From the NCBI GenBank assembly GCA_001548435.1, contig AP017308.1, forward strand, positions 1,063,030-1,127,029: a stretch of DNA of 64,000 bases, in the 5' to 3' direction. This document shows positions 39,647 through 45,974 of the stretch, piece by piece; the first letter of the stretch is position 1, and each line of letters opens with the position of its first letter. The position numbers were made by a program, and so were the translations under genes. The notes beneath the pieces were generated by a model. That model searched no databases, was not told where the DNA came from, and saw nothing but the letters and a program-made list of their open reading frames with translations. Source of the DNA: Leptolyngbya sp. NIES-3755. Lineage in GTDB: Bacteria; Cyanobacteriota; Cyanobacteriia; Leptolyngbyales; Leptolyngbyaceae.

Positions 39647-39949
39647 GTCAGGATTGAGCGTCTTTTACTGGCACGATCGGAGAAATTCAGCGACTAGCAC
39701 TAACATCCAAGCTTGAGTATTTCACACCCAGTCTCGCTTTTTGCTAAACCACAGTGCATCCTCAATGATGTGCTGCGATCTTTAACCTATCTATGTGATT
39801 TAACCAGATCCCACCGAAATTGGCAACACGAGTAGCAGTACTGCGATCGAACATGAGATTTTGTATGAGGTTTATGGATTTCAAATCAAGTTCAAACGAG
39901 TCACGATAGGAAGCAACCCCAACTATGCAAGCGAGTGAACGAATGCTCT
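39647..39949. other. Intergenic region with shared regulatory blocks
   Basis: About 300 bp before the hybrid kinase. It contains a 28-nt repeat (39656-39683), also found at 51863-51890; the GCAACAC block near 39817-39834; and element copy 3. No gene seen. Confidence 0.55.
39853..39881 (+). promoter_or_regulatory. Shared 29-nt upstream element, copy 3
   Basis: ATGAGATTTTGT, ATGAGGTTT, ATGGATTT with ATG at 39853 and 39865. It lies 68 nt before the hybrid-kinase ATG. The upstream ATTGGCAACACGAGTA block (39819-39834) matches blocks before copies 4 and 5. Confidence 0.65.
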
Positions 39950-42424
39950 ATGTTCAGAAAACTCAGACTTGGAACACAATTTACCTTACTGCTGACCCTG
40001 ATTTTTTTAGGTGGAATCATTCTGAGTGGCATTACTTTATCGGGAGCAATGCAGCACAAAGCTGAGGATGAGATTCTCACGAAAGCTGAAATTCTGACTG
40101 AGACCATGAATGCAGTCAGAACTTATACCAGTGATAACATTGCTCCTCTGTTGCAAGAAGAACTAGAAACGTCACCCAAATTCATTAGTGAGACGGTTCC
40201 CGCTTACTCAGCCCTCAAGGTGTTTGAAAATTTTCGCGATCAGCCTCAACACCAAAATTATATCTATCGAGAGGCAACTCTCAATCCGACGAATCCTAGA
40301 GATCAAGCGGATGAATTTGAAACGAATCTCGTACAGCAATTTCGCCAACAGCCGGATCTCAAACAGTTATCTGGCTATCGTAATCTGAATGGTATCAATC
40401 TGTTCTTTACAGCCCGCCCCCTAGCGGTGACGAAAGCCAGTTGTTTGCAGTGCCATAGTACTCCTGATGTTGCTCCCAAGAGTCAGCTTGCGAGTTTTGG
40501 GTCTGAAGGGGGCTTTGGATGGCAGTTGAATGAGATCGTGGCGGCTCAAACGATTTATGTTCCCTCCGATCAAGTTTTTCAACAGGGAAAACAGTACTTA
40601 GCTTTGACGATGGGCATTTTTGTCACAATTTTTGCCGCAGTCGTGCTATTGATTAATAGGCTATTGAAACGCAGAGTGATTCATCCGCTCAAACAATTAA
40701 CCGCGATCGCTCATAGCATCAAAACGGGCACGATGACCACTGAGCAAGTCGGTGCATTTCATTCCCCTGCTGTGGCGCGAATTGCCAAACGAGCAGACGA
40801 ACCGGGACAACTTGCACGAGCATTTCAACACATGGCGCGGGAAGTCGCAGTGCGTGAACAGAATCTAAGTCAGGCAGTTGGACAACGGACAGCACAACTC
40901 GCTCAAAGTATGAAGACGGCTCAACAGGCGAAAATTCAAGCTGAAGAAGCGAATGCAACGAAGAGTCAGTTTCTAGCAAACATGAGCCACGAATTACGCA
41001 CTCCACTGAATGCAATCATTGGCTACAGCGAGATTTTAGTGGAAGAGATGACCGACCTAAGAGTGCCGAGCTTGATTCCAGATATTCAGAAGATTCATAG
41101 TGCTGGAAAACATCTTTTGGGGCTGATCAACAATATTCTGGACTTGTCGAAAGTTGAAGCAGGCAAAATTGAACTCTATTTGGAAACTTTTGCGATCGCG
41201 CCCTTGATTCAAGAAGTGACAGATACCATTCGCCCGCTACTAACAAAAAATAACAATACGCTGGTCGTGAACTGTCCTGACGACATTGGCTCGATGAAAG
41301 CAGACATCACTAAACTACGTCAGAGCTTGTTCAATCTCCTTAGCAACGCCAGCAAATTTACAGAAAATGGTACTGTGACATTGACTGTAGCACGAGAAGC
41401 AGACTGGATTACCTTTGCAATTCGTGATACGGGCATTGGGATCACTCCACAGCAGCAGGCGAACCTATTTCAGGCATTTACTCAAGCTGATGTGTCTACA
41501 ACACGCAAGTATGGCGGAACAGGACTGGGATTAGTGATCACTCAGCAATTCTGCAAAATTATGGGTGGGGAGATTCATGTCGAGAGCGAAGCAGGTAGAG
41601 GCACAACCTTTACGATTCGATTGCCAGAACAAGTTCAATCCCTTCACCCTGAGCCGCAGCATCAAACCATCGATCGAACAGGCTCGACCAATGGTACTAT
41701 CTTAGTAATTGATGACGATCCGACTGTTCATGACCTGATGCGGCGATTTCTCAGTCGAGAAGGATATCATGTCATTTCAGGATTGAGCGGACAAGAAGGA
41801 CTGCAACTTGCTAGAGAACAGTCTCCTAATGCGATTTTGCTCGATGTTAGAATGCCGCATGTGAACGGTTGGGAAGTCTTGAGTGAGCTAAAATCTGACT
41901 CCGAACTCGCGAAAATTCCGGTGATCATGGTGACGATCGAGGATGATCAAGCGTTAGGCTTTGCATTAGGAGCGGTTGACTATCTTTTGAAACCTGTTGA
42001 CTACGATCGCTTATTAGCGCTGTTGCAACCGTATTGTACTTCGCCGCTTACATCTGTGATGGTGGTAGAAGATAACGCTGAAAATCGAGAAATGATCACC
42101 CGGCAATTGATCAAAGCAGGGTGGCATGTTTTGGAAGCAGAGAATGGGCGAAAAGCGATCGAGCTTTTACAAAATCAGCAACCCGCAGTGATTTTACTCG
42201 ATTTGATGATGCCAGAAATGGATGGATTTGAGTTTATTCGGGAACTGCGTCAACATCCAGAATGGCGATCGCTTCCGGTCATCGTCCTGACTGCGAAAGA
42301 TTTAACGATCGATGAACGACAATGGCTCGATCGACAAACTCAGCGCATTTGGCAGAAGGGGACAAGCTACCGTCAAACTTTGCTCGATGAGATTCGCAGT
42401 GTGATCACCGAACCGCACGAATAG
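39950..42424 (+). CDS. Hybrid histidine kinase with Tll0287-like haem-motif sensor and two receivers
   Basis: An 824-residue kinase. TM1 is near residues 10-35, followed by a DUF3365/Tll0287-like sensor with a c-type haem motif C165-x-x-C168-H169 ([10 protein letters not shown]), TM2 near 220-245 and HAMP. HisKA has H347 ([19 protein letters not shown]) and an intact HATPase domain (N-box [20 protein letters not shown]). Two receivers follow ([13 protein letters not shown] and [13 protein letters not shown]). A haem-linked redox or gas signal is inferred. ATG 39950 is chosen; GTG 39935 would add five residues. Two further signalling genes follow at 24- and 61-bp gaps, probably one operon. Confidence 0.93.
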
Positions 42425-42448: not shown

Positions 42449-44116
42449 ATGTCACAGAACACTTCAGTGCAGCAGTCATTACTGATCTATCTCCGCCACG
42501 AACTTTGTACTCCGATTACTGGCATGATCGGCTACAGCGAACTCTTATTAGAAGCCTTGCAATCCCAATCAGATTCAAGTCTATTCGCCGATGTGCAAAA
42601 GATTTACGCTTGTAGTCAGCAGCTTTTGAAATTGGTCAACCTCATTCTAGATCCAGTGCAACTAGAAAGGAGCCGAATCGAGAGAAATCTGAGCAGCTTT
42701 AGTACGACACTGCGAATCGAACTGTTAACACCCTTAAGCGCAATCATAGGCTATTGTGAAATGCTGCTAGAAGAAGCGCCTGCCGAATTGATCCCAGATT
42801 TAGACAGTCTCAACGCTTCATCTCACCAAATGCTGAGCTTAATCAACGATATTATTCACTTCGCACAACAACAACTACAAACTGCAAAAAATCAAGGACA
42901 TCGCACCCCTCAACTGTCCGAGAATTTCACGACAAGTTCCGTAGTTCAGAGTGCGACAACAACCCTTGAGTCTCTAAGTCAAAGATCTTCTGAAAAACAA
43001 CTTCAGAGCGGCATGATTCTAGTCGTCGATGACAATCCAACCCATTGCAATTTGCTATCTCGACAGCTAAAACGACAAGGATATGCAGTCACGACCGCCA
43101 CGAATGCTAAACAGGCTCTACGTCTACTCGAAGCGATTCCCCACGATCTAATTTTGCTAGATGTGGTTATGCCTGGAATCAGTGGTATCGAATTGCTTCA
43201 GCAACTTAAACAGCATCACTGCTTTCAGTCCATTCCAGTGATGATGCTCTCTGCTCTAGATGAGATAGAAGGGGCTATCAAATGTATTGAACTGGGAGCA
43301 GAAGACTATGTGCAAAAGCCATTTGATCCGAGCTTACTGAGAGCAAAAATTGAAACTTGTTTGAAGAAGCGATCGAGAAACCAGAAGAGTTCCCACTCTG
43401 TGGAACGCCACTCCCCAGGATCAGCGATCGAGACAAGAACTCGCGATCCCGATCTGCTCCATCCGAATCGGTTGAGCCAACTTGCCCTAGCAGCCAACCC
43501 TCCCGAAAAACCTCCGTCTGTCAGTCCTGATGCTGCTTTAGCGCGGTTACTCAAAGGCAATCAGCGATTTGTAAATGGACTGTGCCAGAACTTACAGCAA
43601 TCTCGATGCTTGCACCGCGCTTCGCGTTCTCGGCTCCAAGAAACCGCAATTGCTCAATATCCATTTGCCGCAATCCTGGGCTGTGCAGATTCTAGAGTGC
43701 CAGCCGAAATCGTTTTTGACCAAGGTGTAGGGGATTTATTCGTGATTCGAGTCGCGGGAAATGTTGCCAGCCAAACCGCGATCGGGAGTTTGGAATTTGC
43801 CGCATCAGTCCTCGGAACACCGCTGATTGTGGTAGTTGGACATAGTGGTTGTGGGGCAGTCGCGGCAGCCGTCAAAGGAGAACCCCTGCCCGGTCGCATT
43901 GGCAGTTTTGTTGAAGACATTAAACCTGTTATTGCTCATGTGAAACATAAAACGGGTGACTTAAAAGAAAATACAGTGATCGCAAATATTCAGTATCAGG
44001 TACAGAAATTGACGGGAAGTTCAACGATTTTGGCGGACTTGATCGCGGCAGGCAAGCTCAAAATTGTTGGGGGTCAGTATGATCTGCGGACTGGAAAATT
44101 CTCGATCGTGATTTAA
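42449..44116 (+). CDS. HisKA-HisKA-receiver-beta-carbonic anhydrase fusion
   Basis: A 555-residue fusion. Two HisKA-like helical hairpins come first: LRHELCTPITGMIGYSELL keeps the His, LRIELLTPLSAIIGYCEML has Ile there. No HATPase domain follows. The receiver (about 190-310) has acidic VVDDNP, D238 (LILLDVVMPGISG) and the VQKPF lysine. After a Ser/Arg-rich linker comes a full beta-carbonic anhydrase (about 360-555) with zinc ligands C412-x-D414-S-R416 and H465-x-x-C468 (GHSGCGAV). One uninterrupted frame. A phospho-controlled CO2/bicarbonate enzyme or sensor is inferred. Second in the hybrid-kinase operon. Confidence 0.93.
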   Translation: MSQNTSVQQSLLIYLRHELCTPITGMIGYSELLLEALQSQSDSSLFADVQKIYACSQQLLKLVNLILDPVQLERSRIERNLSSFSTTLRIELLTPLSAIIGYCEMLLEEAPAELIPDLDSLNASSHQMLSLINDIIHFAQQQLQTAKNQGHRTPQLSENFTTSSVVQSATTTLESLSQRSSEKQLQSGMILVVDDNPTHCNLLSRQLKRQGYAVTTATNAKQALRLLEAIPHDLILLDVVMPGISGIELLQQLKQHHCFQSIPVMMLSALDEIEGAIKCIELGAEDYVQKPFDPSLLRAKIETCLKKRSRNQKSSHSVERHSPGSAIETRTRDPDLLHPNRLSQLALAANPPEKPPSVSPDAALARLLKGNQRFVNGLCQNLQQSRCLHRASRSRLQETAIAQYPFAAILGCADSRVPAEIVFDQGVGDLFVIRVAGNVASQTAIGSLEFAASVLGTPLIVVVGHSGCGAVAAAVKGEPLPGRIGSFVEDIKPVIAHVKHKTGDLKENTVIANIQYQVQKLTGSSTILADLIAAGKLKIVGGQYDLRTGKFSIVI

Positions 44117-44177: not shown

Positions 44178-45974
44178 ATGGCTAGAATTCTTTTAGTTGA
44201 AGATAACGATATCAATCGAGAGATGCTGTCCCGCCGACTAGAACGGAAAGGATATGAAGTCATTGTTGCCATCAACGGCGCAGAAGGGGTCGCCAAAACT
44301 CAAATAGAGCAACCTGACTTAGTGTTAATGGATTTGCATCTTCCTGTTTTAAATGGGTGGGAAGCAACTCGACAGATTAGAGCGAATCCCGAAACGCAAC
44401 ACATCTCGATCGTGGCTCTAACCGCAGATGCAAACGCGGGTGAATCCGAAAAAGCGCTTGCAGCAGGGTGTGATGACTATGAAACGAAACCAGTCGATTT
44501 CACTCGATTGTTAAATAAAATCGCCAAACTTCTAGTGCCTCCAGCAGTGTCAAGCATCGTATTATCCTCTGAGATGCCAGATTCGCCCGCAGATCGATCG
44601 CTTCAGCGACTTCTACGATCGCGTTTACGTCATCAACTAGATGTACCGATTCACAACATCATCGGTTACAGCAATCTACTGTTGGATGCGCTGAGTGATG
44701 ATCAGAACTCGACTCTATGCAGTGATATTCAGAAAATTCAGACCAGTGCTCTACAATTGCTGAAATTGGTGCAGGCGATTCTCAATCCAGTGCTAGTCGA
44801 TATTCAACAGCAAGATTTTGCAATCAATCTCTTTGCTTCTGTTCTTCGTCGGGAACTCCTGACACCGCTGAGTACGATTATTGGCTACTGTGAACTGTTG
44901 TTTGAAGAAGCTTCTCCTGATTTGGTGCCAGATTTAGAACAAATCTATAGCTCGGCTCAGAATTTACTCAGCATGGTGAACAGTTTAGACAGTCTGATCA
45001 CACAGCCTCTTCAAGCTGACGATCGAGAAGATACGGATTTAGAACGCTCGATCGCGATTCGTCAATCTATTATTCCGGAGGATCACCGCATTCTCGTTGT
45101 AGACAGTCATGAATCTAGCAGTGCATTGTTGTCTCGGCAGCTAGAGCGAAAAGGATACCAGATTGCGATCGCAAATACTCCTGATCAAGTTCTGCAAACC
45201 CTAGCAGCAATTTCTTGCCACTTAATTTTGATAGATGTAGAAGATTTACAACTGTTAAAGCAGATCAGATCTCATGAGGAATGGCAACATATCCCAGTTC
45301 TCCTAATTGCAGTACCCGATGAACTAGAGACTGTTGTTCAGGGAATTGCGATCGGAGCCACAGATTTCATCTCTAAACCCCTACAGCCCGTGATTCTCTA
45401 CTCTAAAATTGCGACTCATTTAGAACATGAGCAGTTGCGCCAACAGGTAGAAACATTACAACTTGAGTTAGAGCAAATCAAGCGAGGGCAACAAGCCGCA
45501 GAGATGGTTCAAACACAGTATTTTCAGCAATTACAGTCTTTAGAGGAATTCCCGTCGCTAGAAACCTCTCCCCTCAAAGTCCTATTAGTCGAAGACAATG
45601 AATTGAACAGTGATATGCTCTCTCGTCGGTTGCAGCGTTATGGCTATGAAGTCGTGATCGCCAATGACGGTGCAGAGGGAGTCTCGAAAGCGATATCAGA
45701 ACAGCCTCATCTCATTCTGATGGACATTAGTTTGCCGATTATGGATGGTTGGGAAGCAACCCAAAAACTAAAAGCCTATCCTGAAACTTGCCGCATTCCC
45801 GTGATCGCGCTAACGGCTCATGCAATGACGGGCGATCGAGAAAAAGCACTAGCAGCCGGATGCAATGACTACGACACCAAACCGATCGAGTTACCTCGCC
45901 TGCTCAGCAAGATTGAAGCCTGCTTGAAACGCTCCACTACGAACTCACGACAGACTGGCTCTCAATTCTCGTAA
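44178..45974 (+). CDS. Multi-receiver protein with two HisKA-like modules
   Basis: A 598-residue protein. Order: receiver 1 (ILLVEDNDINREML, LVLMDLHLPVLNG), two HisKA-like hairpins (LRHQLDVPIHNIIGYSNLL, then LRRELLTPLSTIIGYCELL with Arg for His), a degenerate receiver (ILVVDSHESS, LILIDVEDL), a coiled coil, and receiver 3 (VLLVEDNELNSDML, LILMDISLPIMDG). No ATPase domain. The HisKA pair mirrors that of the carbonic-anhydrase fusion before it, suggesting hetero-dimerisation or a duplication. TAGGAG precedes ATG 44178. It is the last gene of the operon and overlaps the convergent Uma2 gene by 30 nt. Confidence 0.9.
   Translation: MARILLVEDNDINREMLSRRLERKGYEVIVAINGAEGVAKTQIEQPDLVLMDLHLPVLNGWEATRQIRANPETQHISIVALTADANAGESEKALAAGCDDYETKPVDFTRLLNKIAKLLVPPAVSSIVLSSEMPDSPADRSLQRLLRSRLRHQLDVPIHNIIGYSNLLLDALSDDQNSTLCSDIQKIQTSALQLLKLVQAILNPVLVDIQQQDFAINLFASVLRRELLTPLSTIIGYCELLFEEASPDLVPDLEQIYSSAQNLLSMVNSLDSLITQPLQADDREDTDLERSIAIRQSIIPEDHRILVVDSHESSSALLSRQLERKGYQIAIANTPDQVLQTLAAISCHLILIDVEDLQLLKQIRSHEEWQHIPVLLIAVPDELETVVQGIAIGATDFISKPLQPVILYSKIATHLEHEQLRQQVETLQLELEQIKRGQQAAEMVQTQYFQQLQSLEEFPSLETSPLKVLLVEDNELNSDMLSRRLQRYGYEVVIANDGAEGVSKAISEQPHLILMDISLPIMDGWEATQKLKAYPETCRIPVIALTAHAMTGDREKALAAGCNDYDTKPIELPRLLSKIEACLKRSTTNSRQTGSQFS

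Follow-up and report, generated by a model that had tools for sequence, protein, structure and literature searches.

Response regulators with an enzyme as output are already known, among them REC-cyclase and PleD-type REC-GGDEF proteins, in which an intact receiver (REC) precedes the enzyme. Here we describe a protein of the cyanobacterium Leptolyngbya sp. NIES-3755 that shares this order but has a metabolic zinc enzyme as its output where those proteins have a second-messenger enzyme. It is encoded on the + strand by gene 2 (42449-44116) of a 64,000-nucleotide window (contig AP017308.1, positions 1,063,030 to 1,127,029; coordinates below are those of the window), and reads HisKA-HisKA-REC-linker-beta-carbonic anhydrase (CA). 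The CA in the output place appears to be new and apparently came from an exported gene. The enzyme part resembles the exported cyanobacterial beta-CAs of the twin-arginine translocation (Tat) type (EcaB-like in the sense of likeness, not of orthology) and falls into one clade with them; unlike these, the fusion has no signal motif and is joined to signalling domains. According to the accessible parts of two papers, EcaB of Synechocystis carries a twin-arginine motif and is located mostly at the thylakoids (PMC11360081, PMC10096703). The signalling part resembles HisKA-HisKA-REC-ParA proteins, which are alike in residues ~1-347 and, where the locus is long enough, in their neighbours, but have a ParA/MinD-type ATPase where the fusion has the CA; a REC-cyclase protein of Sinorhizobium meliloti is also related to it. 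A beta-CA likewise forms the C-terminal domain of a larger protein in a SulP-CA fusion (L053, Crenotrichaceae), although its partner there is a transporter and in NIES-3755 a receiver. Control of a cyanobacterial CA has a precedent in CsoSCA, the alpha-carboxysome CA activated by ribulose 1,5-bisphosphate (RuBP), which in the available portion of its source (PMC11086599) is a case of metabolite allostery, whereas we propose phosphorylation for the NIES-3755 fusion. A literature search confined to open-licence papers, with most subscription papers outside it, found no description of a receiver or response regulator joined to a CA; within that literature, this supports the statement in the original prediction, made from the letters of this DNA alone, that such a signalling protein lacks a described precedent.

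Gene 2 is a single open frame of 555 aa without an internal stop, which rules out an origin by read-through or frameshift. Pfam detected HisKA in two stretches (2.7e-22), Response_reg at residues 190-302 (5.3e-31) and Pro_CA (PF00484) at residues 408-550 (1.2e-38; 133.2 bits against a cut-off of 25.7). The first HisKA hairpin (42449-42673) has the H-box HELCTP with the phospho-acceptor-type His17 (42497-42499), and the second (42692-42874) has IELLTP, with Ile90 (42716-42718) at the position of the His. The receiver (43016-43354) is complete, with the phospho-acceptor D238 (43160-43162), S268, K290 and the acidic pair; like the hairpins, it is supported by Pfam, alignment and predicted structure. 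A poorly conserved linker (43355-43498) leads to the beta-CA domain (43499-44110), recognized by Pfam, alignment and fold. Beta-CAs are defined by Cys-His-Cys zinc ligands plus an Asp/Arg dyad. All of these residues are present in the fusion, namely C412 (43682-43684), H465 (43841-43843) and C468 (43850-43852) together with D414/R416, and the CA is presumably active. The full-length structure prediction was good for the receiver and for a large part of the CA core, and poor for the linkers and the domain arrangement; the CA core matched 2a5v (Z 22.2, rmsd 3.0, 187 residues) and 1ym3 (Z 21.6). No HATPase_c was detected by Pfam, so the protein does not classify as a histidine kinase. The 555-codon frame, the two hairpins, D238, the CA residues and the missing ATPase had all been predicted, and Pfam and the residue check confirmed them. 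Near the start of the CA, seven codons (window ~43601-43621, residues ~385-391) occur only in NIES-3755 and are missing from the relatives in Leptolyngbya sp. Prado105 and in genome G076 (both below) and from the aligned Tat-CAs.

Among the 42 genomes of the order (its own included), the sole other full-length match was in Leptolyngbya sp. Prado105 (residues 1-554, 80% identity), where gene 1 and the fusion (544 aa) lie on one contig, followed by gene 3, of which only the start is present before the contig ends. Since the same fusion and neighbours stand in a separately assembled genome, an assembly artefact was ruled out, and the doubt voiced in the original prediction, that the fusion might have no relative, is dispelled. 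Nei-Gojobori pairwise estimates between the two strains, some with saturated dS, gave a dN/dS of 0.15 (dS 0.87) for the whole protein and, at dS values of 0.6-1.7, of 0.08 and 0.07 for the HisKA stretches, 0.11 for the receiver, 0.39 for the linker (residues 306-350) and 0.15 for the CA. This pattern indicates that two diverged lineages kept every domain, and by these estimates the fusion is under purifying selection. Among the matches listed, the full fusion was present in 2 of 410 cyanobacterial genomes (G000-G409), which came from overlapping searches of the order (42), of a sample of the class (388) and of the families of G076 (19), G188 (29), G227 (36) and G332 (63). The distribution was read from the best matches, among which a fusion would stand; the class search scored three candidates per genome, so that rarer layouts could escape it. 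Furthermore, an exact-peptide pattern scan of genome contigs returned 27 loci, with both parts covered only in Prado105, a Pro_CA survey of 388 genomes showed, among the matches listed, none in a frame longer than 421 aa, and in a plasmid tblastn search (E 1e-20) 0 of 611 matching records covered 80% of the query.

The signalling part occurs elsewhere with other outputs. Eight other genomes encode, in frames of 700-872 aa, proteins that align with its residues ~1-347 at 54-68% identity, and in 9/9 proteins scanned with Pfam, from eight genomes, HisKA-HisKA-REC is followed by the ParA/MinD-type ATPase; the G221 protein has one extra receiver in front. A longer group (G233, G274, G323, G332 and G337; one of the five scanned) has PAS and further REC domains instead. 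On pSymB of S. meliloti, a Tll0287 protein, a hybrid kinase and a receiver stand in a row before a relative of residues 4-308 (33% identity), which ends in a class III cyclase and in which only the second HisKA stretch reaches Pfam's list. By these alignments the input unit carries different outputs in one slot, ParA, cyclase or CA, which suggests that the unit predates the CA fusion. The CA seems to have taken the slot held by a ParA-type ATPase in related cassettes, with ParA to CA as the probable direction of exchange. The earlier proposal that phosphorylation controls the enzyme thus gains comparative support, as the same input module occurs with ParA or cyclase outputs. Elsewhere in the NIES-3755 genome (L118 403-2289; G000:C1 ~3.0 Mb), another Tll0287-HAMP protein has a stand-alone ParA-type ATPase directly behind it, with 53% identity to the ParA tail found in related cassettes; the Prado105 matches of the two are adjacent too.

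Stand-alone CAs of five genus members and of G029 share 71-75% identity with the CA domain of the fusion. In a tree built from the CA domains of 52 of the 53 collected frames (without the SulP fusion L053; some branches are long), NIES-3755, Prado105 and G076 formed one clade (100/100), in which the first two split from G076 with a support of 98/73. This clade stands beside the stand-alone CAs of the genus (87/82), and both belong to a larger clade (100/99) in which all 8 rows outside the fusion lineage have the Tat motif; by this tree the CA groups with exported Tat-type enzymes, which the original prediction had missed. A twin-arginine pattern in the first 45 residues, scored as a text pattern and not by a trained predictor, with start codons set mechanically, was found in 35 of 37 non-fusion cyanobacterial CA frames and in 8/8 nearest relatives, but in 0/3 fusion-lineage proteins and 0/12 Acinetobacter frames, so the fusion does not count as bearing a Tat signal. 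Its CA region aligns with the part of the Tat-CAs from just behind the presumed signal peptide. Because it has no export signal, the fusion is probably cytosolic, and an exported Tat-type CA seems to have come to occupy an exchangeable output slot in the cytosol. The parental clade is represented in 5 of 6 other genus members; no second CA of this clade was found, among the matches listed, in the three fusion-lineage genomes (Prado105, G022, is 93% complete).

Among 11 Tat-CA neighbourhoods, SbtA adjoins the CA in three of the more distant; in one, rbcL lies ~1 kb upstream, and one contains a REC-cyclase. In G029 (L076 3012-7168), a CHASE4 histidine kinase and a REC-class III cyclase precede a stand-alone Tat-CA that belongs to the parental clade. 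Another CA adjoining cyclic-nucleotide signalling, in this case without a Tat motif, lies 15 bp behind an MscS-cNMP channel and a dCache-HAMP-cyclase in G340 (L097 204-4458). NIES-3755 itself has a Tat-motif CA paralogue (G000:C1:2252289-2252870; L004 1486-2262, - strand) that has lost the zinc ligands, with CSADSR and with GSDREP replacing GHxxCGA, and that is possibly a pseudo-enzyme. A 39% identical CA in a 754-aa frame (G404:C40:6251-6838) is perhaps another SulP-CA fusion.

A relative without the signalling part was found in G076, a genome of another family. It has 264 residues (300 from an upstream TTG) and 81% identity over residues 305-554. Comparison by eye shows that its opening codons, together with some preceding bases, equal the fusion start and are followed by an in-frame jump to the receiver-CA linker; the automatic aligner did not align the two starts. 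On this match the signalling part has been deleted in frame in G076, and an insertion was ruled out, as the start resembles that of the fusion and not that of a Tat-CA. No Tll0287 match was found in G076, nor in 3 of 8 genus members searched alongside. For the CA, the silent-site distance to NIES-3755 is dS 0.52 from G076 and dS 0.61 from Prado105; because the former is as low as the latter despite the different family, the G076 CA was probably acquired by horizontal transfer.

The replacement of one HisKA His had been noted in the original prediction and proved to be Ile90, but a conserved pattern behind it had been missed. In 16/16 proteins of the fusion-module type (11 of the gene-2 form and 5 of the longer PAS/REC group), the first H-box His is kept and the second is Ile, Met, Val, Leu or Trp; the receiver Asp at the D238 position is kept in 16/16 and the Lys in 15/16. 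Ten further rows include five gene-3-type proteins with neither His, L098 with both, and L069 gene 3, L106, L088 and the S. meliloti cyclase with one only, the last in the reversed pattern (Gln first, His second). As aligned, the one-His pattern is conserved and not that of a decayed kinase. Predicted alone from an alignment of three sequences (72/186 residues with pLDDT of at least 90, 40/186 below 50), the N-terminus formed four helices (3-36, 44-66, 74-109 and 112-149) and a fifth of low confidence (158-185). The tandem HisKA is likely a kinase-type dimer bundle in one chain with one histidine, which would act like a histidine phosphotransfer (HPt) domain. A fold search with the N-terminus gave no Foldseek match at E <= 0.001, and no kinase dimerisation bundle was among the best 50 matches of either fold program, which neither supports nor excludes such a bundle.

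Directly upstream, gene 1 (39935-42424, + strand, 829 aa) encodes a putative membrane hybrid histidine kinase, Tll0287-HAMP-HisKA-HATPase_c-REC-REC by Pfam. Its Tll0287-like haem domain (40052-40564, + strand; PF11845, 1.9e-41, residues 40-210) contains CLQCH, which fits CXXCH; the HAMP match is weak (23.6 bits against a cut-off of 25.0). The haem-motif hybrid kinase expected there was thus confirmed, 24 bp before the fusion. Gene 1 shares 87% amino acid identity with its Prado105 copy (dN/dS 0.09). According to the available part of a preprint, the signalling-type Tll0287 domain of P. azotoformans binds c-haem and NO (nitric oxide) and no stable O2 (PMC12889525). NO is not claimed here as the signal for gene 1, since that part of the preprint concerns Pseudomonas proteins. 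A literature search linking NO with carbonic anhydrase, inorganic carbon, histidine kinases and cyanobacteria found no paper.

With moderate confidence, we propose that a haem-sensor phosphorelay controls the fused cytosolic CA and that the output slot was changed to CA. The gene 1 kinase, with its extracytoplasmic c-haem (Tll0287/sCache_heme) domain, would autophosphorylate and pass the phosphate along the receivers that it carries itself. In gene 2, both HisKA hairpins together would make up a four-helix bundle within one chain, with His17 as the only usable histidine; this bundle would serve as an HPt-like transfer step that would feed D238 of the adjoining receiver, this being the presumed route of the phosphate. 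The state of the receiver would then alter how the fused beta-CA assembles or how active it is, through a putative gate that might act in either direction. The CA part would derive from a Tat-exported CA gene that lost its signal peptide and took the slot of the ParA-type ATPase. Such an arrangement suggests that a haem sensor in the membrane can control a CA directly. Cyanobacteria are thought to exclude CA from the cytosol since it collapses the bicarbonate pool, and ectopic CA makes them require high CO2 (Price and Badger 1989, cited in PMC8438413 and PMC11360081, in the sections of these two that were available), which makes control of a cytosolic CA attractive. It is a tentative extension that an extracytoplasmic c-haem sensor, possibly for NO or redox, switches the cytosolic CA and thereby opens or closes a deliberate leak of the bicarbonate pool; that this switch would be the first two-component-gated CA, created by transfer of an exported enzyme to an exchangeable phosphorelay output slot, is a similarly doubtful step.

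Several observations weigh against control of the CA by the phosphorelay. The fusion is rare, and by its apparent deletion G076 retains the CA without the signalling part, so the CA can persist without such control. The dN/dS of the CA is looser than the 0.04-0.07 among the Tat-CAs of the genus. The residue before C468, Arg in 7/8 and Lys in 1/8 nearest Tat-CAs, is Gly or Asp in the fusion lineage, so that CA activity may differ. In addition, the best fold matches of the N-terminus were general helical bundles, many of them designed, and residues 321-352 of the linker and the stretch 372-401 had pLDDT below 50, with an overall pTM of 0.42, so no receiver-CA contact is supported.

It is rather unlikely, on balance, that the CA is constitutively active in the cytosol and that HisKA-HisKA-REC merely positions it, at the membrane kinase or in an oligomer, with phosphorylation having no effect. 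This would agree with the long low-confidence linker and with the CA kept in G076 after the in-frame deletion, and also with the observation that, of the columns invariant in 8 near Tat-CAs, no more than 8 differ in every one of the three fusion-lineage CAs, and none of these is a zinc or dyad residue; however, the REC phosphorylation residues and His17 are kept, the HisKA and REC domains are constrained, and the high-CO2 need caused by ectopic CA, in the parts of PMC8438413 and PMC11360081 that cover it, argues for control. Feedback of the reverse kind, which the original prediction had also offered, with the CA domain as a CO2 or bicarbonate sensor modulating phosphate flow via His17/D238 to the kinase, is improbable: further receivers around the fusion, in genes 1 and 3, would suit it, but the fusion has no HATPase, the equivalent slot elsewhere holds ParA or cyclase outputs, and the open-licence literature search turned up no sensing role for a CA domain, so this claim found no support. 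We give little credence to a recent, near-neutral fusion with the CA, or else the signalling part, as a passenger heading for loss, since the rarity of the fusion, the CA constraint looser than in Tat-CAs, the insertion at ~385-391 unique to NIES-3755 and the loss of the signalling part in G076 are countered by the open frame, the catalytic residues, domain dN/dS values of 0.07-0.39 at dS 0.6-1.7 and the lack, among the matches listed, of another parental-clade CA in the three fusion-lineage genomes.

As a whole, the original prediction is partly supported. If the phosphorelay does control the fused CA, this would tie two-component signalling directly to inorganic carbon chemistry; a CA without a signal behind a receiver would be a natural test of whether a cytosolic CA is tolerated or used when gated. 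The finding also points to a phosphorelay input unit with a lineage-specific output (ParA, cyclase or CA), which by the structural model includes a likely single-chain, one-histidine phosphotransfer bundle.

Gene 3 (44178-45974, + strand, 598 aa), REC-HisKA-HisKA-REC-REC by Pfam, is the third gene of the cassette, as judged also from the neighbourhoods of relatives. It begins after a gap of 61 bp, and no + strand terminator-like site was found in this gap or in that between genes 1 and 2 by a consensus scan, a weak one that found fewer sites than in shuffles. Wherever enough of the locus is present, the gene 2 counterpart in related cassettes is preceded by a Tll0287 hybrid kinase and followed by a REC-HisKA-HisKA-REC gene; the kinase was identified by PF11845 in the cassettes of G017, G018 (both copies) and G022, and elsewhere by eye. 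In four cassettes (one G018 copy, G188, G227 and G221), a ~740-aa protein lies between genes 2 and 3 (L067 7518-9734, L089 3357-5591, L090 5966-8191 and L091 7356-9605). It is a SulP-STAS-cNMP permease (Sulfate_transp-STAS-cNMP; one of the four scanned with Pfam, the others assigned by eye), for which neither a role as bicarbonate transporter nor a relation to BicA is claimed. Behind the cassette in several genomes, although not in this window, lies a large conserved protein, one copy of which (L067 14588-18313) gave no Pfam family at 0.001; it has a MCGNFGFLG motif, looks amidotransferase-like by eye and also stands at L069 11618-14671, L070 1558-4557, L068 3016-5985 and L090 8-3643.
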